Shown here piece by piece: positions 5,250 to 31,572 of a stretch of 49,164 bases of DNA. Position 1 is the first letter of the stretch, and the number at the start of each line of letters is the position of its first letter. The notes below the pieces were generated by a model. That model was not told the DNA's origin. It saw only the letters and a list, made by a program, of their open reading frames with translations, and searched no databases. A program made the translations under genes and the position numbers. The stretch is from Litoreibacter sp. (GTDB taxonomy: Bacteria; Pseudomonadota; Alphaproteobacteria; Rhodobacterales; Rhodobacteraceae): positions 1-49,164 of the forward strand of contig JAPORH010000072.1 of the NCBI GenBank assembly GCA_026710325.1, in the 5' to 3' direction.

Positions 5250-5307
5250 GGGGGAAGGCTTTGCCCTCCCCCGTACCCCCACCCAGGATATTTTTGAAGC
5301 AATGAAG
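5250..5307 (+). repeat. Dispersed 3'-end repeat, copy A
   Basis: A GC hairpin (5250-5259 with 5263-5272, one mismatch, loop TTT) is followed by a C-rich linker and the conserved tail GGATATTTTTGAAGCAATGA... ending at 5307. It begins 32 nt after the glcB stop in the same orientation as glcB. The other copies are at 15452, 22240 (minus), 25845 and 31525. Possible role: transcription termination or mRNA 3'-end stabilisation. Confidence 0.75.
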
Positions 5308-5321
5308 AACAGGAGGCCCTG

Positions 5322-5750
5322 ATGGCCGAAATCTCGCTCAACAAAGCCCGTACGATCATCCGCAAGACACTTGCCAAAGGGCGGGAGATGGACCTCAAAC
5401 CGCTCTCAGTTGTGGTGCTGGACAGCGGCGGTCACGTCAAAGCATTTGAACGCGAGGATGGCGCCTCCCCGGGCCGCTTTGCGATTGCTCATGGCAAAGC
5501 ATATGGTGCGGTGATGCTGGGGATGGCCGGCAAAGCGCAGATGGCGCGGGCGGAGCAGCAGCATTATTTTATGACCGCTGTAAACGGGCTTTTTGGTGGG
5601 CAAGTGGTGCCTGTGCCTGGCGGCGTTCTGCTACGCGACAAACGCGGGCTGATCGTGGGAGCGGTGGGCGTGACCGGCGACACATCTGACAACGACGCGG
5701 AAGCCGCCGTTGCAGGCATCGAGGCGGCGGCGCTCACAGCAGAGGTTTAA
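5322..5750 (+). CDS. GlcG/HbpS-family (DUF336) heme-binding-like protein
   Basis: A 142-aa protein of the GlcG/HbpS fold: an N-terminal helix (MAEISLNKARTIIRKTLAKG), a beta core with VVVLDSGGHVKAFERED, then the VPVPGGVLLRD and VGAVGVTGDTSDNDAEAA motifs typical of the family. There is no signal peptide, so it is cytoplasmic. Homologues sit in glycolate and heme-degradation loci, and its place directly after malate synthase G fits glcG. The biochemical role of GlcG is not well established. An AGGAGG-type ribosome site (ACAGGAGGCCCTG) precedes the ATG. It is probably cotranscribed with glcB unless repeat copy A terminates the message. Confidence 0.85.
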   Translation: MAEISLNKARTIIRKTLAKGREMDLKPLSVVVLDSGGHVKAFEREDGASPGRFAIAHGKAYGAVMLGMAGKAQMARAEQQHYFMTAVNGLFGGQVVPVPGGVLLRDKRGLIVGAVGVTGDTSDNDAEAAVAGIEAAALTAEV

Positions 5751-5850
5751 CGCGTTCTTAGTGTGCACAAACTATGTGCTGCCCTGCGGGTCGACCTGAG
5801 CGGCCTGTCGAGCTATGTAACGAGGACGGTACAATAACCAAGGTACGCAA

Positions 5851-6627
5851 ATGACCCGCCCAGTGATTGGTGTGATTGGCAACCACTATATGCTCAACGA
5901 TGAATATCCCGCTTACGCAACGGGGGAAATGAGTTGTGACGCGGTGGTCGATGCGGCAGGTGGCATGCCGTTTATCGTTGCCTCGAACCCGCGCTATGCC
6001 TCAATTGCCGAGCTGATGGAGGTGTGTGACGGGTTTGTCTTTACAGGCGGTCGGCAAAACGTGCACCCGGAGGAATATGGCGAGGGCGAGACCGAGGCAC
6101 ATGGCACCTTTGATCGCGGCCGCGACGCAGTAGCCCTACCGTTGATCCGCGCCTGCGTGGCCGCTGGGCAGCCGATCCTGGGCATTTGCCGTGGGTTTCA
6201 GGAGGTCAATGTCGCCATGGGTGGCTCGCTTTACCCTGAAATTCGGGATCTGCCGGGACGTGACAATCACCGGATGCCGCCGGACGGCACCTTGGACGAG
6301 AAATTTGCGCTACGTCATATCGTAAAAGTGAGCGAGGGCGGGCCGTTTCACAAAGTCTTTGGAAAGACCGAGGTGCTGACAAATACGTTGCATGGCCAGG
6401 GCATCAAAGAGCCGGGCCCGCGCGTTGTGATCGACGGAACCGCCCCTGATGGCACGCCCGAGGCGATCTACATCAAGGATGCGCCGGGCTTCTGCCTGTC
6501 CGTGCAGTGGCACCCGGAATACCGCGCGGCTGACGATCCAGTGTCCCGCCCGCTCTATGAAGCGTTCGGGGAAGCCGCGCGGCGTTGGCAGGCGGGTGAA
6601 CGCCCAAAGGTGCTCAAAAGCGCTTAA
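5851..6627 (+). CDS. Class-I glutamine amidotransferase-like hydrolase (peptidase C26, PuuD-like)
   Basis: 258-aa protein of the gamma-glutamyl-gamma-aminobutyrate hydrolase family. The nucleophile elbow is ILGICRGFQEVN with Cys113, and the His221/Glu223 pair lies in VQWHPEY, completing the catalytic triad. An early FTGGRQNVHPEEYGE stretch matches the substrate-loop region of PuuD. The family releases glutamate from gamma-glutamyl amines in polyamine or ethanolamine catabolism. No other polyamine genes are nearby, so the substrate is open. It lies 100 nt after the GlcG-like gene. Its last codons overlap the convergent SCP2-like gene by 4 nt. Confidence 0.85.
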   Translation: MTRPVIGVIGNHYMLNDEYPAYATGEMSCDAVVDAAGGMPFIVASNPRYASIAELMEVCDGFVFTGGRQNVHPEEYGEGETEAHGTFDRGRDAVALPLIRACVAAGQPILGICRGFQEVNVAMGGSLYPEIRDLPGRDNHRMPPDGTLDEKFALRHIVKVSEGGPFHKVFGKTEVLTNTLHGQGIKEPGPRVVIDGTAPDGTPEAIYIKDAPGFCLSVQWHPEYRAADDPVSRPLYEAFGEAARRWQAGERPKVLKSA

Positions 6628-6914
6628 GCGGTCAGTATGTCGCTGACTTTCAGCGCACGCATCTGGTTGCCATCGACCTTCAGTTTGCCGGACATGACCG
6701 CCATGATCGGGTTTTGAGTGCCCGACAGGATGGCGCGAAATGTCTCGGGGGATGCTTTCAACGTGACATCGGCCGTGTAGTCGCCCGCGGTGGCGCCTTC
6801 CTCAGTCAGCATGACAGACCCATGCTCGCCGATGACCAATTTGGCTGTACCCTTGATGGCACCAAGGGCTTTTGGATGCAGGGTGGCGACGAATTCTTCT
6901 ATAATGCTGGGCAT
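6624..6914 (-). CDS. SCP2 sterol-binding-domain protein
   Basis: A 96-aa single-domain SCP2 protein (MPSIIEEFVATLHPKALG at the N-terminus, then ...ADVTLKASPETF, SGTQNPIMAVMSGKLKVDG near the C-terminus). SCP2 domains bind lipids or acyl-CoA in a hydrophobic tunnel. The start at 6914 was chosen because GAAGG lies 8 nt upstream. Upstream in-frame starts at 6929 and 6947 would run into a perfect inverted repeat that looks like an operator. It is the last gene of the minus-strand run, 75 nt after the amidohydrolase gene. Its specific ligand is unknown. Confidence 0.82.
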   Translation of the reverse strand: MPSIIEEFVATLHPKALGAIKGTAKLVIGEHGSVMLTEEGATAGDYTADVTLKASPETFRAILSGTQNPIMAVMSGKLKVDGNQMRALKVSDILTA

Positions 6915-13692: not shown

Positions 13693-14901
13693 ATGACAGC
13701 CCCATCTACCCCCTCCGCCTATCCGATCGTGCGCCTCAAGCCCAAGGCCGACGCCTCCCGTATCCGCGCGGGCCAGCCTTGGGTCTATGCCGACGATGTC
13801 GTCACCGACCGCCGTACCAAGAAAATAGCCGCTGGCAAGCTTGCACTTTTGCAAGATGCTGGGCGCGAGAATATCGGCGTTGTGGCGGTCAATGGCGCCT
13901 CCAAGATCATGCTGCGCATATTGGATCGCGACCCAGTGGCACAGATTGATCAAGCGTGGTTTGAGGCCAAGCTTTCCGGCGCCCATGAGCTGCGCGCGCG
14001 TTTGTACGACGCGCGTTTTTACCGGCTGGTGCACGCGGAAGGCGACGGGCTGCCGGGGCTGATTATTGATCGCTTTGGTGAGACCTGTGTGGTCCAGCCC
14101 AATGCCGCGTGGCTGGAAGCGCGGCTTGATGAGCTTTTCGCGGCATTGAAGAAAATCACTGGCGTCGAGTGTATATATAAGAGTGCATCTGGCCGCACGC
14201 GGGAGTTGGAAGGCCTCGACACGGAAAGCAAACTGATCTGCGGCACGCTCGATGGTCCCATCAAGGTCGCAATGAACGGTGCCACCTATCTGGCGGACAT
14301 CGCAGGCGGGCAAAAAACAGGTCTCTTTTATGACCAACGCCCCAATCACGCCTTTGCGGCGCGTCTCGCCAAAGACGCGCGCGTGTTGGATGTATTTTCG
14401 CATGTTGGCGGCTTTGGTCTGGCCGCGCTCGCAGGTGGTGCAGCCTCTGCGCTGGCCGTTGATGGGTCGGAACCCGCTTTGACACTGGCCCGGCAGGGCG
14501 CGGAAGACATGGGCGTGGCCGATCGTTTCGACACAAAAAAGGGCGACGCGTTCAAAGTGATGGAAAGCCTGCAGGTCGAGGGCCAGGCGTTTGATTTGGT
14601 CATCGCTGACCCACCCGCCTTTGCGCCGTCGAAAAAGGCGCTTCAAAATGGGCTCACGGCCTATTCCCGCGTGGCAGCGCAAGCGGCACGTTTGACTGAA
14701 CGTGGCGGTTATCTAGTGCTCTGCTCCTGCTCGCATGCGGCCGATTTGGGAAGGTTCCGCGCGGCGTGTCTGCGCGGCATCAACCGGGCGGGGCGGCGGG
14801 CCCAGCTACTCTATACCGGCGGGGCCGGGCCCGATCACCCGATGCATGAAGCGCTGGTCGAAAGCGGCTACCTCAAGTCGCTGTTCTTCAGGCTTGATTG
14901 A
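13693..14901 (+). CDS. rlmI: 23S rRNA (cytosine-C5)-methyltransferase, RlmI type
   Basis: 402-aa class I SAM-dependent methyltransferase. An N-terminal PUA-like RNA-binding domain (YPIVRLKPKADASRIRAGQP, PWVYADDV) precedes the Rossmann domain with the SAM motif VLDVFSHVGGFGLAAL and the catalytic-site motif ADPPAFAPSKKAL, then LVLCSCSH. RlmI methylates C1962 of 23S rRNA in E. coli. The length matches the family. The stop overlaps the PIN-protein start (TGATG), so the two are coupled. Confidence 0.88.
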   Translation: MTAPSTPSAYPIVRLKPKADASRIRAGQPWVYADDVVTDRRTKKIAAGKLALLQDAGRENIGVVAVNGASKIMLRILDRDPVAQIDQAWFEAKLSGAHELRARLYDARFYRLVHAEGDGLPGLIIDRFGETCVVQPNAAWLEARLDELFAALKKITGVECIYKSASGRTRELEGLDTESKLICGTLDGPIKVAMNGATYLADIAGGQKTGLFYDQRPNHAFAARLAKDARVLDVFSHVGGFGLAALAGGAASALAVDGSEPALTLARQGAEDMGVADRFDTKKGDAFKVMESLQVEGQAFDLVIADPPAFAPSKKALQNGLTAYSRVAAQAARLTERGGYLVLCSCSHAADLGRFRAACLRGINRAGRRAQLLYTGGAGPDHPMHEALVESGYLKSLFFRLD

Positions 14902-15440
14902 TGCGCGCCTGTCTGGACGCCTGTGTTCTTTTTCCGACCGTGCTGCGCGAAATCCTTTTGGGCGTCGCGTCACGGGGCGGCTTCACCCCGCTCTGGTCCG
15001 ACCGCATTTTGGAGGAATGGGCCCGCGCGACAATCAAGCTGGGGCCAGCGGCCGAGGCGCAGGCGCGCGGCGAAGTAGCGCTGCTACGTGCCAAGTTTCC
15101 CAAAGCCAGTGTGGTGCCAAAAGCCGGTGATCTTGCGCGGCTGCATCTGCCAGATGAGAACGACATCCACGTGCTGGCCGCAGCTATTGCGGGCTCGGCC
15201 GATGTGATTGTGACGCTCAACATAAAGGATTTCCCGCGCCAAACGCTGTCTTTCGAGGGGGTCGCGCTCGAAGTACCTGATGCTTTCCTAATGGGAATTT
15301 GGATGGAGCGGTCCGAAATGGTGGAGGCCGCGGTACACGAGGTGTACGCCACCGCACAAAAGATGATTGGGGAAGAGATCGCTCTGCGCGCGCTTTTAAA
15401 ACGGGCGCGATTGCCGCGTTTGGGGAAGGCTTTGGCCTAG
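14901..15440 (+). CDS. PIN-domain protein (putative RNase)
   Basis: 179-aa PIN-fold protein: MRACLDACVLFPTVLRE carries the first conserved Asp, LPDENDIHVLAAAI the central acidic pair, and DVIVTLNIKDFP the last Asp. These acidic residues coordinate metal in PIN ribonucleases. The start is the ATG at 14901 overlapping the rlmI stop; a TTG three bases earlier is a poor alternative. No antitoxin-like gene lies next to it, and its C-terminal ~50 residues extend beyond the usual PIN core. A toxin role is therefore not supported; RNA processing alongside RlmI is possible. Confidence 0.78.
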   Translation: MRACLDACVLFPTVLREILLGVASRGGFTPLWSDRILEEWARATIKLGPAAEAQARGEVALLRAKFPKASVVPKAGDLARLHLPDENDIHVLAAAIAGSADVIVTLNIKDFPRQTLSFEGVALEVPDAFLMGIWMERSEMVEAAVHEVYATAQKMIGEEIALRALLKRARLPRLGKALA

Positions 15441-15451
15441 AGGTTTTGCGC

Positions 15452-15521
15452 CGTGGCTTCGCCACGTCGCGGTGGCGGGGGCCAGCCCCCGCGCCCCCGG
15501 GATATTTCTAAAGCAATGAAG
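15452..15521 (+). repeat. Dispersed 3'-end repeat, copy B
   Basis: Two perfect hairpins, CGTGGC-TTC-GCCACG (15452-15466) and GCGGGGGC-CA-GCCCCCGC (15475-15492), then the tail GGATATTTCTAAAGCAATGA... ending at 15521. The tail differs from the other copies at two positions. It follows the PIN gene by 11 nt in the same orientation, between convergent genes. Confidence 0.75.
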
Positions 15522-15536
15522 AGGGCGCGGCGCGCT

Positions 15537-16847: not shown

Positions 16848-16883
16848 TACCCCCAAGATACGGGGCACACCCCCGCATCGCCT

Positions 16884-21081: not shown

Positions 21082-21157
21082 GACCCAAAGCCGCCACCCC
21101 GAGTCGACCTTGTAAAGCGGGCAGGCGAAACGGCTTTGCAGTTAAGGGAGTTATGGG

Positions 21158-21580
21158 ATGAAAGCAGAGGTATTCCTGCCGGAGGATTACAAGCCGGCTG
21201 AGGACGAGCCATTCATGAATGAGCGCCAAACGGAGTATTTCCGCCGCAAGCTTCTCGACTGGAAGCAGTCCATCCTCGACGAGACCAATCTGACCATTGA
21301 AGGCATGCAGGAAGGCACCCGCAACATCCCTGACATCGCTGACCGTGCCTCGGAAGAGACCGACCGCGCGCTGGAGCTGCGCACCCGCGACCGCCAGCGC
21401 AAGCTAATCTCCAAGATCGACTCCGCGTTGCGCCGCATCGACGAAGGCGAATATGGCTATTGCGAAGACACAGGCGAGCCGATCTCGCTCAAGCGCCTCG
21501 ACGCCCGTCCAATCGCGACGCTGAGCCTGGAAGCGCAGGAACGCCACGAGCGGCGCGAAAAAGTACATCGCGACGATTGA
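21158..21580 (+). CDS. dksA: RNA polymerase-binding transcription factor DksA, single-cysteine form
   Basis: 140 aa. DksA binds the RNA polymerase secondary channel and, with ppGpp, tunes rRNA and amino-acid promoters. The coiled-coil tip motif DIADRA (Asp59, Asp62, Ala64) needed for activity is intact. The zinc-finger region is GYCEDTGEPI...ATLSLEAQ: only Cys102 remains, where E. coli DksA has four zinc cysteines. A cysteine-poor DksA is, as I recall, normal for Rhodobacter relatives and functional. GGGAG lies before the ATG. A clear terminator follows at 21603. Confidence 0.94.
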   Translation: MKAEVFLPEDYKPAEDEPFMNERQTEYFRRKLLDWKQSILDETNLTIEGMQEGTRNIPDIADRASEETDRALELRTRDRQRKLISKIDSALRRIDEGEYGYCEDTGEPISLKRLDARPIATLSLEAQERHERREKVHRDD

Positions 21581-21602
21581 TCCCGCCAAAGCCGTGAATA
21601 CC

Positions 21603-21627
21603 GCCGGGCCTAGCGCCCGGCTTTTTT
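21603..21627 (+). terminator. Rho-independent terminator of dksA
   Basis: Stem GCCGGGC (21603-21609) / GCCCGGC (21615-21621), 5-nt loop, then six Ts. It is 22 nt after the dksA stop and only 17 nt before the LysE-type gene. Confidence 0.9.
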
Positions 21628-21644
21628 ATTTGTAAGCTGCCCAA

Positions 21645-22238
21645 ATGCTTAGCTTCGCCGCCGCTGTTTTTCTTCTCATCATCACGCCTGGGCCGGGGGT
21701 CTTATCTCTCGCTGGTGTCGGTGCGGCCTATGGGTTTCGCGCGGGGCTTCGCTATTTCATCGGGCTTTTCATCGGAACCAATCTGGTGGCGCTTGCGGTG
21801 GTCACGGGCCTGGCGGCGCTGATCCTGGCCAACCCGGTGATCCGCACCGTATTGATGGGGGCCTCAACCGCCTATTTGCTCTTCATGGCCTACAAGATCG
21901 CAACCGCTGGCAGCCAAATCGGCTTCAGTGCGGCCGCGCGCCAGCCCGGAATTCGAGACGGGCTTATGCTCCAAGCGATCAACCCAAAGGCTTACGTGGT
22001 CAATACAACGCTGTTCTCGGGCTTTGCTTTCTTCCCGGCGTCCTACACGGTTGAGGTCGCGCTCAAATTTCTCATTACAAATGTAATATGGTGTGCGCTG
22101 CATTTCCTATGGCTCTGGATCGGCGCCCGCATCAAGGCGATGAACCTTGCCCCGAAGACGCAACGCATCATCAATATCTTCATGGCTTTTGCGCTCATAG
22201 GCGTGGTCGGCCTCGCCCTATGGGCGTCGCGTCCCTGA
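21645..22238 (+). CDS. LysE/RhtB-family amino-acid exporter
   Basis: 197-aa inner-membrane protein with about six hydrophobic helices. The N-terminal FLLIITPGPGVLSLAGVG contains the family's TPGP signature, then GFRAGLRYFIGLFIGTNL and NPKAYVV in the middle loop. LysE/RhtB proteins export amino acids or related metabolites; the substrate cannot be read from sequence. The ATG is just 17 nt after the dksA terminator and has no obvious ribosome site, so it may be translated from a nearly leaderless transcript or by read-through. Confidence 0.88.
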   Translation: MLSFAAAVFLLIITPGPGVLSLAGVGAAYGFRAGLRYFIGLFIGTNLVALAVVTGLAALILANPVIRTVLMGASTAYLLFMAYKIATAGSQIGFSAAARQPGIRDGLMLQAINPKAYVVNTTLFSGFAFFPASYTVEVALKFLITNVIWCALHFLWLWIGARIKAMNLAPKTQRIINIFMAFALIGVVGLALWASRP

Positions 22239-22239
22239 T

Positions 22240-22294
22240 CTTCATTGCTTCAAAAATATCCCTGGGGAGGGCGCAGCCCGGGGGCAGAGCTCCC
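22240..22294 (-). repeat. Dispersed 3'-end repeat, copy C (minus strand)
   Basis: On the minus strand this reads GGGAGCTCTGCCCCC..., a GGGC-TGC-GCCC mini-hairpin, then the tail GGATATTTTTGAAGCAATGA... ending at 22240. It starts 27 nt after the xthA stop and follows xthA's orientation, confirming the gene-end association seen for the plus-strand copies. Confidence 0.75.
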
Positions 22295-22320
22295 TCGACC
22301 AAACCCATGGCACAGAGCCC

Positions 22321-23103
22321 TTAAAGCGCCAACTCCACCCAGACGGGTACATGATCCGAGGGCTTCTCCCGTCCTCGGATCTCGTGATCAATCTTGCAAT
22401 CCATCAGACAGTCTGCCGCCTGTGGGGACAGCAACAAATGATCAATCCGGATCCCGTCATTGCGGTTCCACGCACCCGCTTGGTAGTCCCAGAAAGAATA
22501 CTGCTCCGGCGCTTGGTTGCGGGCGCGGAAAGCATCGGTAAACCCTAAGTTCAAAATCCGGCGAAAGGCGGCGCGGCTCTCGGGGCGGTAAAGCGCATCG
22601 CCTTCCCAGGCCTCAGGGCGCTTAGCGTCCTCTGGCTGCGGAATGATGTTGTAGTCGCCGGCCATCATCGTTGGGATTTCCTCGGCAAGCAGTTCTTCAG
22701 CGCGGGTCCGAAGCCGTTCCATCCAGGCCAATTTGTAGTCAAATTTCGGGCCAGGAGCAGGGTTGCCGTTGGGGAGATACAGCCCGCATACGCGCACCGG
22801 TTTTTCGTCACCCATCACCAGCGCCTCGATCCAGCGGGCCTGTTCGTCGCTGTCGTCACCAGGCAAGCCGCGGCGCACGTCTTCCAAGGGGAGCTTCGAT
22901 AGGATTGCCACACCATTGAAGCTTTTCTGCCCATGGGTTTCGACGTTGTAGCCGCGTTCCTCGAACAGCTCGCGCGGAAAGGCCTCGTCGACGGATTTGA
23001 TTTCCTGCAGCACGGCCACATCGGGTTGCGCCTCATCCAGCCAATCCGGCAGGGCGTTGATGCGGGCCTTGATGCCATTGATGTTGAAGGTGGCGATTTT
23101 CAT
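22321..23103 (-). CDS. xthA: Exodeoxyribonuclease III (AP endonuclease)
   Basis: 260-aa EEP-fold nuclease. Landmarks: MKIATFNINGIKAR, the metal Glu in AVLQEIKS, GVAILSK, the catalytic block LYLPNGNP, the metal ligands in GDYNIIPQPEDA, and the C-terminal IDHLLLS and PSDHVPVWVEL with the catalytic Asp-His. It cuts DNA at abasic sites and trims 3' ends in base-excision repair. Full length and intact. It is convergent with the LysE-type gene and shares a strand with the next gene upstream, 27 nt away. Confidence 0.95.
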   Translation of the reverse strand: MKIATFNINGIKARINALPDWLDEAQPDVAVLQEIKSVDEAFPRELFEERGYNVETHGQKSFNGVAILSKLPLEDVRRGLPGDDSDEQARWIEALVMGDEKPVRVCGLYLPNGNPAPGPKFDYKLAWMERLRTRAEELLAEEIPTMMAGDYNIIPQPEDAKRPEAWEGDALYRPESRAAFRRILNLGFTDAFRARNQAPEQYSFWDYQAGAWNRNDGIRIDHLLLSPQAADCLMDCKIDHEIRGREKPSDHVPVWVELAL

Positions 23104-23130
23104 GAGAGCCCCCGGGCTGCAATTGACCCG

Positions 23131-23859
23131 TCAGATATCGCCCGCAGAAGCAGCGGGGGCAAGAGCAGCTTGCAGCCAAAGCGCGTCAATCTTGGCGAGC
23201 GCGGCGGCATCAAACTGGTCTTCGACCTCCCAATACCGGCCGGAGGGGACTATATAACCCAGCTTTTCCTCCGCGCGCAGTGCGGCTTGTGCTGCTCCGC
23301 GGTCAAAGGGTAGCGGGTCCAATGATGCCAACTTGTCTTGGGCTGCGCGTGGAAAGACAAGGCGACTCTCCTGTTGCGACAAGTTCACCACGGCGCAGCC
23401 CTGTTCGGCAGCCATAATCATCAGACGTGCCGATTTCGCTTCCAGCGATTGCAACGTCACATCAGCGCGCAGCGGGTCTGCCTCGCCGGTGCCGTAAAAA
23501 TGCGTGTTGCCCGTTGGTTTGTAGACCATGTCGCAGCCAAAATAGGCCAAGACGCGTGGTTTGTGGTGACGCAAGGCCCAGTAACCTGCCGTAAATGCCA
23601 TGGTGCCACCTGCATAAACAAAGCCGCCATAGAGGTTTTGCGCAGAGACATAGGCCTCAGCCGTCACAATGCTCTGGCCCTCAGTCAAGTCGGTTGGGAC
23701 GTTTTCTTGCGGAAAATCCTCGGGATGGATTAGGCTGTCCCAGTCGGGGCGCACAGCATAGGCGTTGTTAATCGCCATGATATGGTCGATGCCCGCTCGA
23801 TCCCAATCACGCGCTTCCACCGCGTTCGGCGCACTGCCTAAAATCAAAACTGTATTCAT
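23131..23859 (-). CDS. Rossmann-like protein of unknown function (DUF115/MptE-like resemblance)
   Basis: 242-aa cytoplasmic protein. It opens with a Rossmann-like strand-loop MNTVLILGSAPNAVEARDWD, then IMAINNAYAVRPDWDSLIHP and later VLAYFGCDMVYK and FYGTGEADPLR. The ILGSxPN...AINN pattern is like DUF115 / MptE-type and some glycosyltransferase proteins that bind nucleotides or sugar-nucleotides. This is a weak resemblance and I do not assign function. The start at 23859 follows GGGAACC; an in-frame extension to 23931 adds an unlikely Cys/Arg-rich peptide. No surface-polysaccharide genes are nearby. Confidence 0.7.
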   Translation of the reverse strand: MNTVLILGSAPNAVEARDWDRAGIDHIMAINNAYAVRPDWDSLIHPEDFPQENVPTDLTEGQSIVTAEAYVSAQNLYGGFVYAGGTMAFTAGYWALRHHKPRVLAYFGCDMVYKPTGNTHFYGTGEADPLRADVTLQSLEAKSARLMIMAAEQGCAVVNLSQQESRLVFPRAAQDKLASLDPLPFDRGAAQAALRAEEKLGYIVPSGRYWEVEDQFDAAALAKIDALWLQAALAPAASAGDI

Positions 23860-23976
23860 GGTTCCCGTGAGCCCTCGACGACACGTGGTGGATATAGTTC
23901 GCAGTTCACATCTGGCGACGGGGTGGGACAAAATCGCACATATTCTTCCGAAGTTTCAACGCGCTCGCCTGAGAAA

Positions 23977-24004
23977 TTGAAAAAGCCGCTGATTTCTGTA
24001 TAGC
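23977..24004 (+). promoter_or_regulatory. Candidate promoter of the interrupted lipoprotein gene
   Basis: TTGAAA (23977-23982) and TATAGC (23999-24004) are spaced 16 bp and lie 33 nt before the ATG at 24037. Reasonable sigma-70-type match by eye only. Confidence 0.35.
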
Positions 24005-24036
24005 TAAGAAAAAACAAAACGGTTTGAGGCCGATCG

Positions 24037-24219
24037 ATGCAGAAAATCTTGATAACCGCCGCCTTTGGCGCGCTAGTGGCCTGTGGCGTGCCGCCAGAGG
24101 AGGACAACGTGTCCTAGGACGCGTTTAAACCGCTAAACCGAGCGCTTATTGTGCCGGTGGATGCCGCAACGCTCGAACAATCGCCCGCCTGGGCGGAGCT
24201 CGTCGCAAGCTACGAGTGA
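24037..24219 (+). pseudogene. Small lipoprotein gene interrupted by an in-frame TAG
   Basis: From ATG 24037 the frame encodes a lipoprotein start, MQKILITAAFGALVACG with lipobox LVAC (Cys16), then GVPPEEDNVS, and hits TAG at 24115-24117. The same frame then continues for 33 sense codons (DAFKPLNRALIVPVDAATLE, QSPAWAELVASYE) to a TGA at 24217. The downstream part looks protein-like in composition. One base change (for example TGG or CAG to TAG) would restore a 60-aa lipoprotein. Possibilities: a recent nonsense mutation, a sequencing error, or a genuine 26-aa lipopeptide. It ends 3 nt before the convergent erpA stop. Confidence 0.6.
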
Positions 24220-24222
24220 ATT

Positions 24223-24552
24223 TTACATCGAGAAAGACGTGCCGCATCCGCAGGAGGAGGTGGCGTTGGGGTTGTCGATGACGAACCGCGCGCCAATCAA
24301 CTCTTCTGTGAAATCAATCACTGCGTTTTCCAAGAAGGGTAGGGAGACGCTGTCGACAACAACCTTCTCCCCCTCTTTCTCGAGGATCAGGTCATCCTCT
24401 GCTGGCGTGTCGAGCTTGATTTCATATTGAAACCCGGAACAACCGCCACCTTCGACCGCGACCCGTAAGGCCTGGCCGCCATCGCCCGCGCCAATTTCAG
24501 ACAGGCGCGCAAAAGCGCGATCGGTGACTTTTGGGGGCAGGGCAAGGTTCAT
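24223..24552 (-). CDS. erpA: Iron-sulfur cluster insertion protein (A-type carrier, ErpA/IscA family)
   Basis: 109-aa A-type Fe-S carrier with the three conserved cysteines: Cys38 in GGGCSGFQYEI, and Cys101 and Cys103 in SSCGCGTSFSM. It passes Fe-S clusters to apoproteins in the cytoplasm. Sequence favours ErpA over IscA, as the gene is not next to isc or suf genes, but these paralogues are hard to separate. The start is ATG 24552; a TTG further up at 24567 is rejected. It is divergent from dgt. Confidence 0.87.
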   Translation of the reverse strand: MNLALPPKVTDRAFARLSEIGAGDGGQALRVAVEGGGCSGFQYEIKLDTPAEDDLILEKEGEKVVVDSVSLPFLENAVIDFTEELIGARFVIDNPNATSSCGCGTSFSM

Positions 24553-24625
24553 TTTCGCGTCTCGCAACTGTTACGCCTCCAATGTAAGATCAGATTGGGA
24601 CAAGGACAAGAAGGGGCCGCACGCT

Positions 24626-25801
24626 ATGACGCTGGCCAAATACGCATGTGACCCGGGGCAAAGCAGGGGCAGGCTCTATGCCGAGGAGGAAAGCACCTTT
24701 CGCAGCTGTTTTCAGCGGGATCGCGACCGCATCATCCATGCCTCCGCCTTCCGCAGGCTCAGGCACAAGACGCAAGTGTTCATTGAGCATGAGGGCGACT
24801 ATTTCCGCACGCGCCTGACCCATTCCATCGAAGTGGCCCAGGTCGCGCGCACGATTGCAGGCGTGTTGGGCTTGAATGTCGAGCTGACAGAGGCCGTGGC
24901 ACTGGCGCATGATCTGGGCCACCCGCCCTTTGGCCACACGGGCGAAGATGCGCTCGATACGTTGATGGCCCCTTATGGCGGTTTTGATCACAATGCGCAG
25001 GCGCTGAAAATCGTGACCTCGCTGGAGCGCCATTACGCGGAGTGGGACGGGTTGAACCTGACCTGGGAAAGCCTCGAAGGCATCGCCAAACATAATGGCC
25101 CGGTGACGGGCGAGCTGCCCTTTGCACTGTCGGAATATTCTGCCCGGCACGATCTGGAGCTTGGCACCTATGCCAGTGGTGAGGCGCAGGTCGCGGCTCT
25201 GGCCGACGACATTGCCTATAACCATCATGACTTGCATGATGGGCTACGCGCTGAGTTGTTTTCCACGGACGAGCTGGCGGAGCTTCCCCTGGTCGGCCCC
25301 TGTTTCGCGCGGGTCGATGAGCTTTACCCGGGCCTGAACTACTACCGCCGCCGTCACGAGGCGTTGCGCAGGTTTTTCGGGATATTGGTCGAGGACGTGA
25401 TCACCGTCGCCCGGGCGCGCCTGGCAGAGCTGGAGCCCGGATCCGTTTCTGATATTCGCGGGGCAGGGCGCCCGATGGTGCAATTCTCAACTGAAATTTG
25501 GGAACAGTTGAAAGTCATCCGTGCGTTCCTCTTTGCCCGTATGTACCGCGCGCCCGCCGTGGTCGAGATGCGGGTGCAAGTGACGCAGGTGATCGAGGAG
25601 CTTTTCCCGCTCTTCATGCGCGAGCCCGAAAGGTTGCCCAAGCAATGGCGAAAGGACGTACAAGAGGCGCAGGGCGAGGTGGCCCTGGCCCGGATTGTTG
25701 CGGATTACATTGCCGGCATGACGGACCGTTTCGCGCTTTTGACCCATGAAAGCCTGATCGGCGGGATAGCGGCCGACAGCTACGTTCTTCCGAGGACCTA
25801 A
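24626..25801 (+). CDS. dgt: dGTP triphosphohydrolase-like HD-domain protein
   Basis: 391-aa HD-domain phosphohydrolase (dGTPase type 2-like). The metal motif runs H..HD..D: FRTRLTHSIEVAQ (His66), AHDLGHPPFGHTGED (His95-Asp96), and ADDIAYNHHDLHDG. Such enzymes hydrolyse dNTPs to deoxynucleosides plus triphosphate and help balance dNTP pools. The start at 24626 was preferred because the 34 residues upstream in frame overlap the erpA coding start region and lack family resemblance. Repeat copy D follows it, then argS. Confidence 0.9.
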   Translation: MTLAKYACDPGQSRGRLYAEEESTFRSCFQRDRDRIIHASAFRRLRHKTQVFIEHEGDYFRTRLTHSIEVAQVARTIAGVLGLNVELTEAVALAHDLGHPPFGHTGEDALDTLMAPYGGFDHNAQALKIVTSLERHYAEWDGLNLTWESLEGIAKHNGPVTGELPFALSEYSARHDLELGTYASGEAQVAALADDIAYNHHDLHDGLRAELFSTDELAELPLVGPCFARVDELYPGLNYYRRRHEALRRFFGILVEDVITVARARLAELEPGSVSDIRGAGRPMVQFSTEIWEQLKVIRAFLFARMYRAPAVVEMRVQVTQVIEELFPLFMREPERLPKQWRKDVQEAQGEVALARIVADYIAGMTDRFALLTHESLIGGIAADSYVLPRT

Positions 25802-25844
25802 AGGCGCGGCTGCGCCGCCCATGGTGCTTTTGCGCTCGCCGCGC

Positions 25845-25896
25845 GGGCTTGAGTGCTTTGCCCTCAAACTCCCAGAATATTTTTGAAACAATGAAG
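25845..25896 (+). repeat. Dispersed 3'-end repeat, copy D
   Basis: After the dgt stop there is a small GC hairpin, GCGGC-TGC-GCCGC (25806-25818). The element itself has arms TTGAG/CTCAA and the tail AGAATATTTTTGAAACAATG... ending at 25896. Same orientation as dgt, 44 nt after its stop and 58 nt before argS. Confidence 0.75.
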
Positions 25897-25953
25897 GGTG
25901 GACCGTGCCTCTGGGCATGATAAACCGCGCGCCAGGATGAAAAGGGCCTCGTC

Positions 25954-27696
25954 ATGAATATTTTTGCACAAATCCGGGAGTTGGTGATCGCGTCTTTGGA
26001 GGCGATGGTCCGAGAGGGTGCGCTGCCTGACGGTTTGAGCTTTGACAATGTGGCGGTCGAGCCACCGCGCGATGCGGCCCATGGCGATATGGCCACCAAC
26101 GCTGCGATGGTCCTGGCCAAGCCCGCCGGGCTGAAGCCGCGCGATATTGCCGAGGGTTTGGCGGCGAAGCTGCAAGCGGATGCGCGGATCACTTTGGCTG
26201 AAGTTGCGGGACCGGGGTTTTTGAACCTGCGCCTGGACGCCTCCGTCTGGGCGGCGGTCGTTCAAGCTGCGCTTGAGCAGGGCGCGCAGTTTGGCCGCTC
26301 CGACATGGGGGCAGGGCGCCGCGTCAATGTCGAATATGTCTCCGCCAACCCGACCGGGCCTTTGCATGTCGGGCATACGCGCGGGGCTGTTTTTGGCGAC
26401 GCGCTGGCCTCGCTTCTGGATTTTGCGGGTCATGAGGTCACGCGCGAATACTATATCAACGATGGCGGCGCGCAGGTCGATGTGTTGGCGCGGTCTGTCT
26501 ATTTGCGCTACCTGGAGGCCCATGGTCAGGAGGTCGCGTTTCCCGATGGCACCTACCCGGGCGATTACCTTATCTCCGTCGGCCAGGCGTTGAAAGACAA
26601 GGTCGGCGACGCATTCGTCGATAAAGGCGAGCAGTATTGGTTGTCAGAGATCCGCGATTTCGCAACCGATGCCATGATGGATTTGATCCGAGCCGACCTG
26701 AAAGCGCTCGGCGTTGAGATGGATGTCTTCTATTCCGAAAAATCGCTCTACGGCACAGGCCGGATCGAAGCGGCGATCGACGTGTTGAAAGAGAAGGGCC
26801 TGATTTATGAAGGCGTGCTCGAGCCGCCCAAGGGCAAAAAGCCCGAGGATTGGGAGCCGCGGGAGCAGACTCTGTTCAAATCGACTGAGCATGGCGATGA
26901 TGTCGACCGCCCGGTGCAGAAATCTGACGGCGCCTGGACCTATTTCGCGCCGGATATCGCCTATCACTACGACAAGATCACGCGCGAGTTTGACGCGCTG
27001 ATTGACGTCTTTGGCGCCGATCACGGCGGCTATGTCAAGCGGATGAAGGCCGCGGTTTCGGCCCTGTCCGAAGGCAAGGTGCCGCTCGATATCAAGCTCA
27101 CGCAGCTTGTGAAGCTGACCAAGAATGGTGAGCTGTTCAAGATGTCCAAGCGGGCGGGGACCTTCGTGACCTTGCGCGACGTGGTCGATGAGGTCGGCCC
27201 GGATGTGACCCGTTTCATCATGTTGACGCGTAAGCAGGATGCGCCACTGGATTTCGACCTCGATAAGGTGCTGGAGCAATCCAAAGACAACCCGGTCTTC
27301 TACGTTCAATACGCGCATGCTCGGGTCCGCTCGGTCCTGCGCAAAGCAGGTGAGGCGGGGGTTGACGCCTCCGATGCTGTCCTGGCTGCGCAAGACCTAT
27401 CGGGCAACACGCATGAGGCGGAGCTGGCGCTCGCTGCAAAGCTTGCTGAATGGCCTCGGCTGGTCGAAATCGCGGCGCGCACCAACGAGCCGCACCGCAT
27501 CGCCTTCTACCTCTATGAGCTCGCAGGCGAGTTCCATGCGCTGTGGAACCGGGGCAATGATGCGACCGAACTGCGCTTCCTGCAGGATGATATCGCAGAC
27601 GGGTTGCCAAAAATCGCGCTCGCACGTGCCACGGCGATTGTTATTTCCGCAGGTCTTGGTATTCTGGGTGTGACACCCGCGGAAGAGATGCGCTGA
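25954..27696 (+). CDS. argS: Arginyl-tRNA synthetase
   Basis: 580-aa class I aminoacyl-tRNA synthetase charging tRNA-Arg. It has the ArgS N-terminal domain, the HIGH-type motif [12 protein letters not shown] (HVGH at 138-141), KMSKR-type sequence [12 protein letters not shown] and a DALR anticodon-binding domain at the C-terminus ([15 protein letters not shown] begins it). Length is normal. AAAAGGG lies about 9 nt before the ATG. It opens the conserved argS-SPOR-nagZ-scpA-scpB order. Confidence 0.97.
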
Positions 27697-27786
27697 CGCC
27701 GAATGATCAGCGGCCTTTCGCACCATAGGGTGACGAGCAGAAGATAAGCGACCGTTGCGCTTGAACGCGGCGGCAGAGAGGCGAAC

Positions 27787-28701
27787 ATGGCTGACGTTGA
27801 TTACGGGCGCGCAAGCGCCGCGCAAGACGAGTATTCCGAGCTATCCCCCCCAATTGGGTTCATGTCCAAAGCCTTGAGCTATGTGGGCGCATTGAGCTCC
27901 ATTGCACTGGTGGCGGGCCTGGGCATCTGGGGCTATGAGCTGACGATGCGCGATGTCACGGATGTCCCGGTCATCCGCGCGCTCGAAGGCCCGTCCCGCA
28001 TTCAGCCAGAAGACCCTGGCGGGCAGTTGGCGCAACATACAGGTCTCGCCGTGAATGCCGTGCAGGCCGAGGGGGAAGCTGCCGGTCCCGCGCCGGAGGT
28101 GATCCTCGCCCCGGACCCGATTGATCTGCGCAGCGACGATATCGTGCTGACCGCCCCGGAAGAAGGGGCCGTGCGTCCCGATGAGCTGGCCGAGGCCATT
28201 GGCACGGTGGTCGCCCTCACGCTGGAAGAGCAAAACCTGACGCCGGAGGAGCGCGGCGCGCGGGTGACGGAGCGTCTGGAAGAGGGGGCCCGCAGCGATG
28301 TCATTTCTATCTCGGTCCCGGGCGTCAATCGCTCTCAACGCCCCGCCTTGCGCCCTGCAATCAACTTGCAGAACCTGCAGCAGACCTCTGCGATCACCTC
28401 CGGAGTAAGCGCCGTCACTGGTCTTGATGTTGACCCGTCGACCCTTCCCAGCGGCACAAGGTTGGTCCAATTGGGGGCGTTTGACGATTTGGAAACCGCG
28501 AAAGCGGAGTGGGACAAGATCGCCGCAAACTTCAGCGATTATATGGATGACAAGAAACGCGTGATCCTGCAGGCCAAGAGCGGGGAACGGGTCTTTTACC
28601 GCCTCCGCGCGCTCGGCTTTGATGACTTGAACGCGTCTCGGCGCTTCTGCGCGGTTTTGGTTGCGGCTGACGCGGCCTGTATCCCTATCCTGTCGCGGTA
28701 A
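27787..28701 (+). CDS. SPOR-domain membrane protein
   Basis: 304 aa. A short cytoplasmic N-terminus, one membrane helix (YVGALSSIALVAGLGIWGYEL, about 38-58), a long acidic Pro/Ala/Glu-rich periplasmic linker, and a C-terminal SPOR domain (about 223-300: TRLVQLGAFDDLETAKAEWD, later VFYRLRALGFDDLNASRRF). SPOR domains bind denuded glycan strands of septal peptidoglycan. AGAGG precedes the ATG by 6 nt. Adjacent nagZ acts on peptidoglycan fragments, so the pair may link septal wall synthesis and recycling. Confidence 0.9.
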   Translation: MADVDYGRASAAQDEYSELSPPIGFMSKALSYVGALSSIALVAGLGIWGYELTMRDVTDVPVIRALEGPSRIQPEDPGGQLAQHTGLAVNAVQAEGEAAGPAPEVILAPDPIDLRSDDIVLTAPEEGAVRPDELAEAIGTVVALTLEEQNLTPEERGARVTERLEEGARSDVISISVPGVNRSQRPALRPAINLQNLQQTSAITSGVSAVTGLDVDPSTLPSGTRLVQLGAFDDLETAKAEWDKIAANFSDYMDDKKRVILQAKSGERVFYRLRALGFDDLNASRRFCAVLVAADAACIPILSR

Positions 28702-28752
28702 TGTTGAAAAACCACAAGCGATATTGACTTAGAGCTTAAAGGTCTTCGCGTA

Positions 28753-29742
28753 ATGGTCTCAAATGCTTATATTTTTGGCTGTGCGGGCGAACAACTCACA
28801 GCAGACGAAAGTCGGTTTTTTGCAAGCGCGAAACCTTGGGGCTTTATCCTGTTTGCTCGAAATGTCGCTGATAAAGCCCAGCTGAAACGGCTCACAGATG
28901 ACTTGCGAGATGCCGTCGGCTGGCAAGCGCCAATCTTAATTGACCAAGAAGGTGGGCGCGTTCAGCGGATGCGCGGTCCCATCTGGCAAGAGTTTCAGCC
29001 CGCCCTTGATCAGATGCAAAGCGCCAGTGATCCGGCGCGTGCCATGTATTTGCGCAACCGATTGATTGCGTCTGATCTGCATGAGGTGGGTATTGACGTG
29101 AATTGCGCGCCCGTCGCCGATGTGCTGCAGCCCGAGACGCATCCGGTGATGAAGAACCGCTGTTACAGCGAGGATGTCGAGACGGCGGTTGCGATGTGTC
29201 GGGAGGCGGCAAAAGGGTTCTTGGATGGTGGCGTCTTGCCGGTGCTCAAACATATCCCGGGCTATGGCCGTGCGGTGGTGGATGGCCACCTTGATTTGCC
29301 GCGCGTGGACGTGTCGCGCGCGGAGCTCGACGCGCTAGACTTTGCGCCCTTCAAGGCGCTCAACGATATCAAGATGGGCATGACGGCCCATATCGTTTTT
29401 CCGGTGATTGACGATGCGCCCGCCACGACCTCCCCCAAGGCGATGCAGGTTATTCGAAAAGAGATCGGGTTCGAAGGCCTGATCATGACGGATGACATCT
29501 CGATGAAGGCATTGTCTGGCTCGGTCGAGGCGCGTTGCGAGGCGGCGCTTGCGGCAGGTTGTGACCTCGCGCTGCATTGCAATGGCAAGATGGAAGAGAT
29601 GGCAAAAATCTCAGAGCGTTGCGGCCCGATGAGCGAGGCCGCACAAAGCCGCGCAAAGGCTGCTTTGGCTGAGGGGCAAACCCCAAGCGACATTGACATT
29701 CCGGCCGCTAGAGCGGAGTTTGAGGCCCTTATAAAAGGGTGA
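28753..29742 (+). CDS. nagZ: Beta-N-acetylhexosaminidase NagZ, with altered catalytic-loop residues
   Basis: 329-aa GH3 enzyme that cuts GlcNAc from anhydro-muropeptides in cell-wall recycling; cytoplasmic. Signatures: PILIDQEGGRVQRM (61-74), KHIPGYGRAVVDGHLDLP (166-183) and the nucleophile motif IMTDDISM (244-251). In the flexible loop that supplies the acid/base His, the usual KHFPGHG...DSH appears as KHIPGYG...DGH: Asp177 and His179 are kept, but Ser is Gly and the first-motif His is Tyr. Activity is still likely. AAAGG lies 9 nt before the ATG. Confidence 0.94.
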   Translation: MVSNAYIFGCAGEQLTADESRFFASAKPWGFILFARNVADKAQLKRLTDDLRDAVGWQAPILIDQEGGRVQRMRGPIWQEFQPALDQMQSASDPARAMYLRNRLIASDLHEVGIDVNCAPVADVLQPETHPVMKNRCYSEDVETAVAMCREAAKGFLDGGVLPVLKHIPGYGRAVVDGHLDLPRVDVSRAELDALDFAPFKALNDIKMGMTAHIVFPVIDDAPATTSPKAMQVIRKEIGFEGLIMTDDISMKALSGSVEARCEAALAAGCDLALHCNGKMEEMAKISERCGPMSEAAQSRAKAALAEGQTPSDIDIPAARAEFEALIKG

Positions 29743-29757
29743 GGTCACGGCCGCGTA

Positions 29758-30573
29758 ATGTCGGACGAAACGAGCACAGAGATCGACACGACTTGGGAGG
29801 AAGGCGGCGTTGAGGCGCGCCTGGCCGCCGAGGCGCTTATCGTCGATGTAGACGGCTTCGAAGGCCCGCTCGATCTGCTTTTGACCTTGTCGCGCACCCA
29901 GAAAGTGGATTTGCGCAAAGTCTCTGTCTTGCAGCTGGCGGAGCAATATTTGGCCTTTATCGAGAAAGCCAAAGAGCTGCGCTTGGAATTGGCCGCGGAT
30001 TATCTGGTCATGGCCGCTTGGCTGGCTTTCCTCAAATCGCGCTTGCTCTTGCCGCCCGACCCCGCGGAGGAAGGGCCGTCGGGCGAAGAGCTCGCCGCGC
30101 ACCTGGCCTTCCAGCTGGAACGCCTGTCAGCGATGCGGGAAGCCTCGGCCAAGCTAATGGCGCGGGACCAATTGGGCCGCGATTTCTTCGCGCGCGGCAT
30201 CCCTGAAGATGTCACCCGCATTCGCAAAGTGACCTACACGGCGACGCTGATAGACCTGATGCAGGCCTATGCGCGGATCAAAACCAAGGATGAATTCCGC
30301 CCCTTCGTGATGGACCGCGAAAAGGTCTTCACGATGGAGCAGGCGCTGGAGCGGATGCGCGGGCTCATCGGCTTTGCGGGCGAATGGTCGGATCTGACCT
30401 CCTGGCTGCCAGAGGGGTGGGAGACGGATCCCGTCAAGCGTCGCTCCGCCACCGCTGCAACCTTTGCCGCATCGCTTGAATTGGCAAAGGCGGGTCAGAT
30501 CGAACTCCGTCAGGGCGAGGTCTTCGCGCCTATTCAAATCCGCAAAAGGACCGAGAGTGACCGACGCAACTGA
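29758..30573 (+). CDS. scpA: Segregation and condensation protein A
   Basis: 271-aa kleisin of the bacterial SMC-ScpAB condensin. The N-terminal SMC-binding motif is FEGPLDLLLTLSRTQKVDLR; the middle is charged and helical (EGPSGEELAAHLAFQLERL); the C-terminal winged helix contains TAATFAASLELAKAGQIELR and QGEVFAPIQIR. Starts 15 nt after nagZ. Its final 17 nt overlap the scpB start, the usual coupling for these partners. Confidence 0.95.
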   Translation: MSDETSTEIDTTWEEGGVEARLAAEALIVDVDGFEGPLDLLLTLSRTQKVDLRKVSVLQLAEQYLAFIEKAKELRLELAADYLVMAAWLAFLKSRLLLPPDPAEEGPSGEELAAHLAFQLERLSAMREASAKLMARDQLGRDFFARGIPEDVTRIRKVTYTATLIDLMQAYARIKTKDEFRPFVMDREKVFTMEQALERMRGLIGFAGEWSDLTSWLPEGWETDPVKRRSATAATFAASLELAKAGQIELRQGEVFAPIQIRKRTESDRRN

Positions 30574-31219
30574 TACCGACACCCCAGAGAATGAAAGCCT
30601 GTTCGAGGCCCCACCCATGGGCGAGCAGGAGCGGATGGTTGAGGCCATCTTGTTCGCCTCTGCCGAGCCAATCACGGTCAAAGAGCTAGAGGGCCGTATG
30701 CCGCATGGCTCGGACCCGGCGGAGGCACTGGTGCATCTGCGCAAACGCTATGAGGGGCGTGGGGTGCATGTCGTCAAAGTTGGCGATGCCTGGGCCATTC
30801 GCACGGCAGGTGATCTGGGGTTCTTGATGCAAAAAGAGACGGTCGAGACCCGCAAGCTCAGCCGCGCCGCGATCGAGACTTTGGCCATTGTCGCCTACCA
30901 TCAGCCCGTCACGCGCGCGGAGATCGAGGAAATTCGCGGGGTTTCCGTAAGCCGTGGCACCGTGGACCAACTGATCGAGTTAGAATGGATTCGCTTTGGC
31001 CGCCGCCGCATGACGCCGGGACGGCCCGTCACCTATGTCGTGACCCAGCATTTCCTGGATCACTTCGGACTGGAAAACGCGCGCGACCTGCCAGGGCTGA
31101 AGGAATTGCGCGCCGCGGGGCTTCTGGACAATAGACCGCCCCCCGGCGCGGATGCGTTGCCTGATGACGACGATGAAGATGAAAGCCCCGAAGGACAGAA
31201 CGAATTGTTTGAAGATTAA
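30557..31219 (+). CDS. scpB: Segregation and condensation protein B (GTG start)
   Basis: 220-aa winged-helix partner of ScpA in the SMC condensin complex. Family blocks: MVEAILFASAEPITVKELEG, LSRAAIETLAIVAYHQPVTR, AEIEEIRGVSVSRGTVDQLI and GRPVTYVVTQHFLDHFGL. The start is GTG at 30557, inside the scpA end, with AAAAGGA 6 nt upstream; an ATG at 30464 would add 31 basic residues unlike any ScpB. The C-terminus is a very acidic tail (DALPDDDDEDESPEGQ). Confidence 0.93.
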   Translation: MTDATDTDTPENESLFEAPPMGEQERMVEAILFASAEPITVKELEGRMPHGSDPAEALVHLRKRYEGRGVHVVKVGDAWAIRTAGDLGFLMQKETVETRKLSRAAIETLAIVAYHQPVTRAEIEEIRGVSVSRGTVDQLIELEWIRFGRRRMTPGRPVTYVVTQHFLDHFGLENARDLPGLKELRAAGLLDNRPPPGADALPDDDDEDESPEGQNELFED

Positions 31220-31289
31220 AGGTGACATGTTAGCTGCGTTACTTATCTAAATGCTCAGGGCTTGGGGGGCTTTGGATAGGAGGGTTCGC

Positions 31290-31487
31290 ATGAACCAGAT
31301 CATCAACATGATCGTCCGCATGGTGGTCCGCCGCCTGATCAATGCCGGGATCAACAAGGGCGTGGACGCGATGGCCAAGCGCCGGGGCGGCAGCGAAGAG
31401 CTGACGCCGGAGCAGAAACAAGCCGCTGCAGAAAATCAGAAGCGCACCAAACAAGCGATCCGCATGACGCGGCGGATCGGGCGGTAA
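31290..31487 (+). CDS. Conserved-looking 65-aa amphipathic protein, unrecognised
   Basis: Starts at 31290 behind an ideal AGGAGG 6 nt upstream. Sequence MNQIINMIVRMVVRRLINAG is an amphipathic, possibly membrane-associated helix with Arg pairs; then DAMAKRRGGSEELTPEQKQ and a basic helical tail ending MTRRIGR. pI is high. It follows scpB by 70 nt and precedes repeat copy E. In related genomes I recall Tat genes after scpB; here this small gene closes the cluster. Family unknown to me. Confidence 0.7.
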   Translation: MNQIINMIVRMVVRRLINAGINKGVDAMAKRRGGSEELTPEQKQAAAENQKRTKQAIRMTRRIGR

Positions 31488-31524
31488 ACGAGGGTTTTCG
31501 CCGCGCTTGCGCGCGTCGACCGAG

Positions 31525-31572
31525 TTGGGGGCTCTGCCCCCAAACCCCCGGAATATTTTTGAAACAATGAAG
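31525..31572 (+). repeat. Dispersed 3'-end repeat, copy E
   Basis: The cleanest copy: perfect hairpin TTGGGGGC-TCT-GCCCCCAA (31525-31543), a C-rich linker, then GGAATATTTTTGAAACAATG... ending at 31572. It follows the 65-aa gene by 38 nt in its orientation, with the convergent dCTP deaminase gene 7 nt beyond. Confidence 0.8.

Follow-up and report, generated by a model that had tools for sequence, protein, structure and literature searches.

Descriptions of bacterial repeats with the layout of an intrastrand triple helix go back to 2000, and no function is established for these repeats, according to passages of PMC4666352. The same passages report that in vivo footprinting did not show folding of the intrastrand triplex repeat of E. 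coli, and that TM_ECO, with the pattern CCCTCNCCC-N3-6-GGGNGAGGG-N3-... and a Y-R-R topology (Y, pyrimidine; R, purine), is without strand bias, is commoner upstream of open reading frames and is without terminator activity. Here, we describe an element from a stretch of 49,164 nucleotides of Litoreibacter sp. (Rhodobacteraceae; assembly GCA_026710325.1, contig JAPORH010000072.1, positions 1 to 49,164), hereafter called the window. Judged from its sequence, the element is an intrastrand triple-helix motif of the kind known as BoxC, PIT or TM_ECO, with another topology, a placement at gene ends, an orientation bias and a tail. We establish its anatomy, a mirror rule for its third tract, covariation at its loop, a joint change of lengths at one site, its gene-end placement and its limit to one clade. 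Our preferred reading, to which we assign a probability of roughly 0.45, is that it may signal 3' ends by means of an intrastrand triple helix, which would form the 3' ends of transcripts by termination.

Anatomy of the element and its third tract

Read 5' to 3' with the upstream gene, the element consists of a purine arm, a loop, a pyrimidine arm, a turn, a third pyrimidine tract, a purine, TATTT and a tail of 20 nt. The loop has 2-3 nt inside a C-G pair, and a short purine run precedes TATTT. The order is thus R-loop-Y-N3-Y, whereas TM_ECO is Y-loop-R-N3-R. We extracted 258 elements as purine-arm hairpins with at least four perfect pairs, a C-loop-G top and RG..TATTT within 48 nt, ignoring the part in between. 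A fetch pattern that fixes the loop, the third tract and the next base supplied the loci of 113 of these elements, and the other 145 are free of it; every copy with a short turn belongs to the free set. The turn is exactly 3 nt long in 66 of the 70 copies with 2-4 nt left for it, and 73 copies have at most 8 nt. Pairing of the first two nucleotides of the turn with the two that precede the arm, which leaves a single nucleotide, is seen in 59 of the 66 copies (27.8 expected from shuffling).

Among the 48 short-turn copies with an A in the arm, 314 of 318 positions of the third tract agree with a mirror image of the 3' arm, compared to 69% for the direct order, and the best of 2000 shuffles of the third tracts within length classes reached 300 of 318. 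The letter of the third tract opposite A is T in 45 cases and A in 3, and opposite G it is C in 269 and G in 1. Three genomes chosen for such arms contribute 35 of the 48 copies (G154 20, G198 9 and G109 6), and the others come from the window's own genome (5), named loci (5) and congeners (3). As a mirror of the 3' arm, this tract is complementary to the purine arm in parallel orientation. An attenuator-like switch, in which the second C tract would form Watson-Crick pairs with the G arm, was considered and rejected, as the asymmetric arms of the short-turn copies give the mirror and not the direct order.

A search with the arm GGGGAGG (3' arm fixed, 8-36 free letters, then GRRTATTT) gave 26 matches in nine of 198 genomes. 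Their third tract fits the mirror CCCCTCC at seven of seven positions (21 matches) or six of seven (five matches) and the direct order CCTCCCC at five of seven in all 26, and the run lengths of 4, 5 or 6 are equal in 25. For a second arm, GAGGGGC, matches were found in 69 of the 198 genomes, and among the matches listed the tract, inspected by eye, is mostly CTCCCC or CACCCC. In 1.63 Mb from five genomes, we counted 148 purine-loop-pyrimidine hairpins of at least six pairs, 40 of which have RG..TATTT where a 3-nt turn predicts it. A mirror tract (at most one mismatch) is present in all 40 of these anchored hairpins, versus 4 of the 108 others and none of 136 in a Markov control. Over the same 1.63 Mb, a mirrored third tract was seen at 44 of 160 purine hairpin tracts versus none of 44 pyrimidine-first ones.

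In the 72 free copies with at least 9 nt, the turn is filled by a second hairpin, here called H2. There are 46 distinct H2 stems among them, in line with an earlier sequence-only reading of the window by a model, which had noticed that the hairpin letters differ and the pairing is kept. In 25 copies, H2 directly adjoins the 3' arm, with a single nucleotide between it and the third tract, and in 21 copies it leaves one and two nucleotides; the loop is of the type cUNCGg in 16 of the 72. When the arm is uniformly G, the run of the third tract equals the arm in length in 20 of 23 short-turn copies. The C-rich linker and GC-rich hairpin of the sequence-only reading are both present, but it missed that the linker mirrors the 3' arm, that the loop pairs with a purine and that the architecture has a 3-nt turn. 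At L195 and L218, which represent the site after xthA, the loop gives way to a second hairpin, which is long and has letters like CATTG..CAATG.

Covariation at the loop was studied in a second extraction with arms of at least five pairs (n = 227), of which 113 were forced by the fetch pattern and 114 were free. In the free copies, the pyrimidine of the loop and the base that follows the third tract are C-G in 96, T-A in 16, C-A in 2 and T-G in none (Fisher 1e-17), with T-A pairs in six of the seven source groups; the counts including the forced copies are 209, 16, 2 and 0. At an orthologous site upstream of a gene for 142 amino acids, the element is present in 8 of 15 congeners with arm lengths of 4, 5, 5, 5, 7, 9, 9 and 9, and in all eight copies the turn has 3 nt, the third tract is as long as the arm and the loop pair matches. 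The mirror beats the direct order in three of the eight and ties with it in five, and this site therefore supports the length and the loop pair more than the mirror. After xthA, the element, as judged by eye, is clear in five of 21 congeners and degenerate in one, so that it is gained or lost.

Similar to BoxC, PIT and TM_ECO, the element is a dispersed, intergenic, G/C-rich one-strand repeat with variable presence between close strains, and it has three tracts that obey the triplex code and a second loop of 3 nt (in the short-turn copies, the H2 copies being looser). It differs from TM_ECO in its gene ends, orientation bias, H2-in-turn variant, loop-purine pair and TATTT with a dialect tail, and the TM_ECO core pattern was found in none of 313 loci. 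The main text of PMC4666352 names no Rhodobacter, Roseobacter, Ruegeria or Alphaproteobacteria, and such motifs may be listed unnamed in its supplement or database. No description naming the element was found in a literature search that had most subscription papers, preprints and all supplements outside its reach. The Rfam covariance models gave no match at any window copy, only tRNA and one sub-threshold LOOT match, both elsewhere.

Intrinsic (Rho-independent) terminators resemble the element in having a GC-rich hairpin near a T stretch, 3' of stop codons. In contrast to them, its hairpin ends about 12 nt before the T stretch (measured in copy E of the window) with the mirrored tract in between, its T stretch is short and its tail is conserved. 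A plain hairpin terminator was rejected as a sufficient description, since the mirrored tract sits between the hairpin and the T stretch. The RNA triple helices at the 3' ends of MALAT1 and PAN ENE are built of U.A-U triplets with an A-rich tail. They share with the element a hairpin plus a third strand at an RNA 3' end, which for the element is a prediction, and they differ from it in that it is mostly C and G and bacterial.

Gene ends, tail and distribution

Genes were called with our own codon-based finder in place of a standard annotation. The distance from the stop codon to the purine arm is 27-50 nt in all five window copies, and the upstream gene is co-oriented each time, including the minus-strand copy after xthA, as had been noted in the sequence-only reading; its distance of 11-44 nt is compatible with a longer definition of the copy. 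Elements from the set of 258 that lie outside called genes and have a gene on both sides (n = 225, congener loci left out) are convergent in 114 cases, co-directional and sense in 74, co-directional and antisense in 31 and divergent in 6, and 10 of 248 elements are inside called genes.

In five genomes, an element is held by 32 of the 102 convergent gaps of at least 60 nt, by 27 of the 438 co-directional gaps (19 sense, 8 antisense) and by one of the 209 divergent gaps; these counts include perfect arms only, so that copies A, C and D of the window are missed. In G154, 19 of 30 convergent gaps have an element. The stretches from G154, G198 and G109 were chosen on copy-bearing contigs, and their densities are not genome averages. 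An evenly spaced sample of another genome, G230, has elements in 4 of 25 convergent, 2 of 116 co-directional and 1 of 47 divergent gaps. Among 72,556 plasmid records, 15 match one element used as a query. Ten of these matches were inspected, three of which are unannotated at the place of the match; of the seven annotated ones, five are flanked by convergent genes, another is antisense in a gap between co-directional genes, and the last overlaps a small hypothetical gene. The megaplasmid of the laboratory roseobacter Ruegeria pomeroyi DSS-3 carries a copy located about 9 nt 3' of a stop codon.

The tail TTTTTGAANCAATGAAG has five matches in the window (at most three mismatches), compared to 0.43 expected, and five or more were obtained in none of 100 shuffles. 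The five copies reported in the sequence-only reading are thus real and at the positions it gave, but five is not the size of the repeat. The genome of the window (4.19 Mb, 240 contigs) contains 61 copies of ATATTTTTGAANCAATGAAG with at most two mismatches, and the reversed pattern, as a control, has none. A regular expression identified a C-run type 5' flank in 45 of the 60 distinct copies, and nine have a second type of flank, GCC-TNC-GGC-GGGG. The tail letters differ among species and are common within the genomes seen, as in GTATTTTTGAAGCAATGATG (several congeners), ATATTTTTGGCAAAATGAAG, ATATTTTTGGCCAGATGAAG and others; the tail is a species-specific dialect, one per genome where seen. Because it follows both hairpin types and keeps one dialect per genome, it is probably read by a factor acting in trans. 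The tail as a stand-alone explanation was dropped, since it also follows the second hairpin type. None of the roles considered in the sequence-only reading (a processing site, a small RNA target, a binding site or a mini-element) emerged for the tail, and the last of these is disfavoured in its REP/RAYT form.

The second element, GCC-TNC-GGC-G[GA]GG-ATATTT-tail, occurs at the own-genome loci L001, L007, L017, L018, L021, L029, L035, L037 and L049. A loop UCC is combined with GGG and a loop UUC with GAG in the few cases seen, which suggests a tiny pseudoknot. Five of the nine are antisense between two co-directional genes, and the GGAGG could be the ribosome-binding site of the next gene. The two tail copies at L034 (about 3611) and L052 (about 2072), located immediately 5' of genes, are preceded by another structured block, GGTGCCT..CGGCGACG..TGCCGGG..AAGGG. 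At L079 and L133, CCCCCGGGATATTTT is followed by a long perfect inverted repeat instead of the tail. On contig C3 of G029, tail copies appear co-oriented in long chromosomal blocks, possibly with the direction of replication.

A covariance model built from 21 own-genome copies matches 144 of 198 genomes of the family Rhodobacteraceae at E<=0.01, which bears out the mention of similar strings in this family in the sequence-only reading; at most 28 candidates were scored per genome, and the counts per genome are lower bounds. A draw of 190 genomes from the class gave no match beyond the window's own genome at E<=1e-4; 21 of the 190 are named, among them two further members of the family, which do not match either. 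In a scan of named genomes, nearly all of at least 114 stretches bear names of Rhodobacteraceae in the wide sense. Five have names from outside the family, namely a Sphingomonadales metagenome-assembled genome (MAG), an Alphaproteobacteria MAG (two stretches), a Proteobacteria MAG and Enemella evansiae. The match in the record named Enemella evansiae, an actinobacterium (L182), represents either a transfer or a contaminated or mislabelled assembly. One element used as a query had no match in 50,697 phage records. Taken over the sets covered, the element belongs to one family, the Rhodobacteraceae.

Proposed termination and competing explanations

The third tract is parallel to the purine arm and of equal length, the turn at the foot is short and a Watson-Crick pair closes the loop end, and we therefore predict the geometry of an intrastrand triple helix, which would be of the pyrimidine motif in the sense strand or of the purine motif in the template strand. 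Fold-prediction programs cannot model triplexes. In the sense strand, the major groove of the hairpin would take up the second pyrimidine tract, which would run parallel to the purine arm and form triplets of T on A-T and of C on G-C. The loop pyrimidine, by its Watson-Crick pair with the purine that follows the tract, would lock the top of the triplex. The compact knot may form as RNA polymerase reaches the weak, U/A-rich TATTT stretch, and it would pause and release the polymerase, so that transcripts end at this stretch. Such a signal would serve chiefly in the gaps of convergent gene pairs, in genomes with few hairpin-plus-T-run terminators; a strict rule detects terminators of this type at 60 of 617 gene ends (four genomes). 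The placement between convergent genes, the rarity of classic terminators and the T stretch make termination our best guess. Triplex formation, action at the RNA level and the ending of transcription are inferred. A more tentative proposal is a family-wide class of terminators, in which an RNA triple helix, capped by the loop-purine pair, would replace the hairpin beside a T run and a species-tuned tail would be read by some factor. The family-wide set shows orientation, placement and covariation that look selected, and if the element works as we propose, triple helices would be a routine part of bacterial gene expression.

Several observations weigh against termination by an RNA triple helix. 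C+.G-C triplets need protonation and favour acid pH, which is established triplex chemistry also set out in passages of PMC4666352, and the third tract is mostly C. The same source cites work in which a related E. coli motif was without terminator activity. In free H2 copies with uniform G arms, the run of the third tract equals the arm in length in only 28 of 52. The base opposite an arm A in H2 copies is A in 16, C in 6 and T in 4 cases, and a few of the 22 non-T rows look misparsed; the pyrimidine code fails in these copies, because A and C dominate. G223 has T, G and A opposite an arm A. Over all copies, A-C and G-U mismatches in the stems number 9 and 2 in H2 (with 21 others) and 3 and 0 in the first hairpin (H1), and in free H2 copies they number 3 and 0 with 15 other mismatches, which are small numbers. 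A-C mismatches with almost no G-U are the reverse of what selection on the sense RNA predicts, and sense-RNA selection alone is not the obvious reading. A classic terminator is present at 4 of 48 gene ends with a sense copy and at 53 of 532 without a copy, and these similar rates give no sign that either one takes the place of the other. Some genomes have a short T stretch, such as GTATTTG in G154, and a scan of positions 14000-33000 for a stem with a T run within 0-2 nt lists none of the four window copies there (copy A is outside this range). In the sequence-only reading, the kept pairing had been taken as a sign of RNA-level selection, and random orientation, mostly intragenic copies or a lack of compensatory changes as grounds for giving up a gene-end RNA element. 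The pairing is indeed kept, and none of these three patterns was found, but 31 of the 105 co-directional copies are antisense and the G-U-poor stems do not agree with pure RNA-level selection.

The element could alternatively protect 3' ends, with RNase E cutting the AU-rich AUAUUU and the upstream triple helix blocking 3'-to-5' exonucleases, which would give stable mRNA ends and perhaps RNAs from 3' untranslated regions. The position 3' of stop codons suits this, and so do the AU-enriched RNase E sites of R. sphaeroides (in part of PMC6238624) and the suggestion in part of PMC7866481 that structured RNA may stop PNPase. However, protection needs a separate way to end transcription, and only the 4 of 48 gene ends mentioned above combine a sense copy with a classic terminator. 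Furthermore, 13 of the 60 own-genome tail copies are 3' of a gene in the same orientation, with their own end 0-6 nt away from that of a convergent gene, and we consider protection unlikely. The element could also act at the DNA level, where the template strand (purine, 3 nt, purine, loop, pyrimidine) would form a purine-motif triplex that is a polar roadblock to RNA polymerase or to replication. The purine motif (G.G-C, A.A-T and T.A-T) does not depend on a low pH and accepts both A and T opposite A, where its letters fit in 48 of 48 short-turn and 20 of 26 H2 cases. Such triplexes are described as stable for DNA and excluded for RNA in a passage of PMC4666352, and the A-C mismatches without G-U point in the same direction. 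The element tends to point the same way as its upstream gene (19 to 8 gaps across the five sampled genomes, 74 to 31 overall), and this bias and the RNA-like cUNCGg loops argue against a DNA roadblock, which we likewise consider unlikely.

A GC-rich hairpin terminator or processing site without any triplex, where the mirrored C tract serves a protein or has another role, would account for the hairpin and the short T stretch, and the tail dialects would fit a co-evolving trans factor. However, the equal lengths, the exact turn of the short-turn copies, the mirroring of A by T and the loop pair then lack a known reason, which makes this explanation rather improbable. Repetitive extragenic palindromic (REP) elements and bacterial interspersed mosaic elements (BIME) are dispersed palindromes at gene 3' ends. 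The element is alike in this respect but differs in its freely varying stem letters. A mobile mini-element of this type, or a miniature inverted-repeat transposable element, inserting 3' of stop codons could explain the many copies per genome and the variable presence after xthA. Against such an origin, Y1_Tnp (RAYT) has no match in the own genome, a draft of 99.75% completeness, although the same control search matches 5 of 14 named genomes, and a REP/RAYT element was rejected on this ground. Moreover, copies at one orthologous site carry tails near each host's own dialect, where seen, and insertion of a mobile element is highly improbable.

The five copies in the window

Four of the five window copies share one architecture with an exact 3-nt turn. 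Copy A (5250-5307, plus strand) follows a stop codon at 5217 and has its tail at 5288-5307. The purine arm at 5250-5258 (GGGGGAAGG) has one A-C mismatch with the 3' arm C1 at 5264-5272 (CCCTCCCCC) around a loop TTT (5260-5262), and the turn GTA (5273-5275) is followed by the third tract C2 at 5276-5284 (CCCCCACCC, a mirror at eight of nine positions) and by A 5285, which pairs with a loop T. Copy D (25851-25896, plus strand; stop codon at 25801, tail at 25877-25896) has the arm GAGTG (25851-25855, one T-C mismatch), the loop TTT (25857-25859), C1 CCCTC (25861-25865) and the turn AAA (25866-25868); C2 CTCCC (25869-25873) is the exact mirror of C1, and A 25874 pairs with a loop T.

The arms of copies B and E are uniform. 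In copy B (15477-15521, plus strand; stop codon at 15440), the arm GGGGG (15477-15481), the loop CA (15483-15484) and C1 (15486-15490) are followed by the turn GCG (15491-15493), C2 CCCCC (15494-15498) and G 15499, which pairs with the loop C; the tail at 15502-15521 has two mismatches. In copy E (31527-31572, plus strand; stop codon at 31487, tail at 31553-31572), the arm GGGGG (31527-31531), the loop TCT (31533-31535) and C1 (31537-31541) are followed by the turn AAA (31542-31544), C2 CCCCC (31545-31549) and G 31550, paired with the loop C. Copy E ends 6 nt short of the end of a convergent gene (31579-32682).

Copy C (22240-22294, minus strand) follows xthA, whose stop codon is at 22321, and has its tail at 22259-22240. 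The arm GGGAG (22294-22290) has one A-C mismatch, and after the loop TCT (22288-22286) and C1 (22284-22280) the turn is filled by the H2 hairpin GGGC-TGC-GCCC (22279-22269) and T 22268. C2 is CCCC (22267-22264), and A 22263 misfits the loop C, as one of the two C-A exceptions. A classic terminator with a GC stem and TTTTTT is located at 21603-21621, between the genes at 21158-21580 and 21645-22238. A hairpin module, TTTTGCGC...TCGCGGTGG, lies 5' of copy B at about 15444-15475 on the plus strand. An upstream module of the form TTTTGCGC-hairpin-TCGCGRYG precedes several own-genome copies, and at the site after xthA a like module stays while the triplex part changes.

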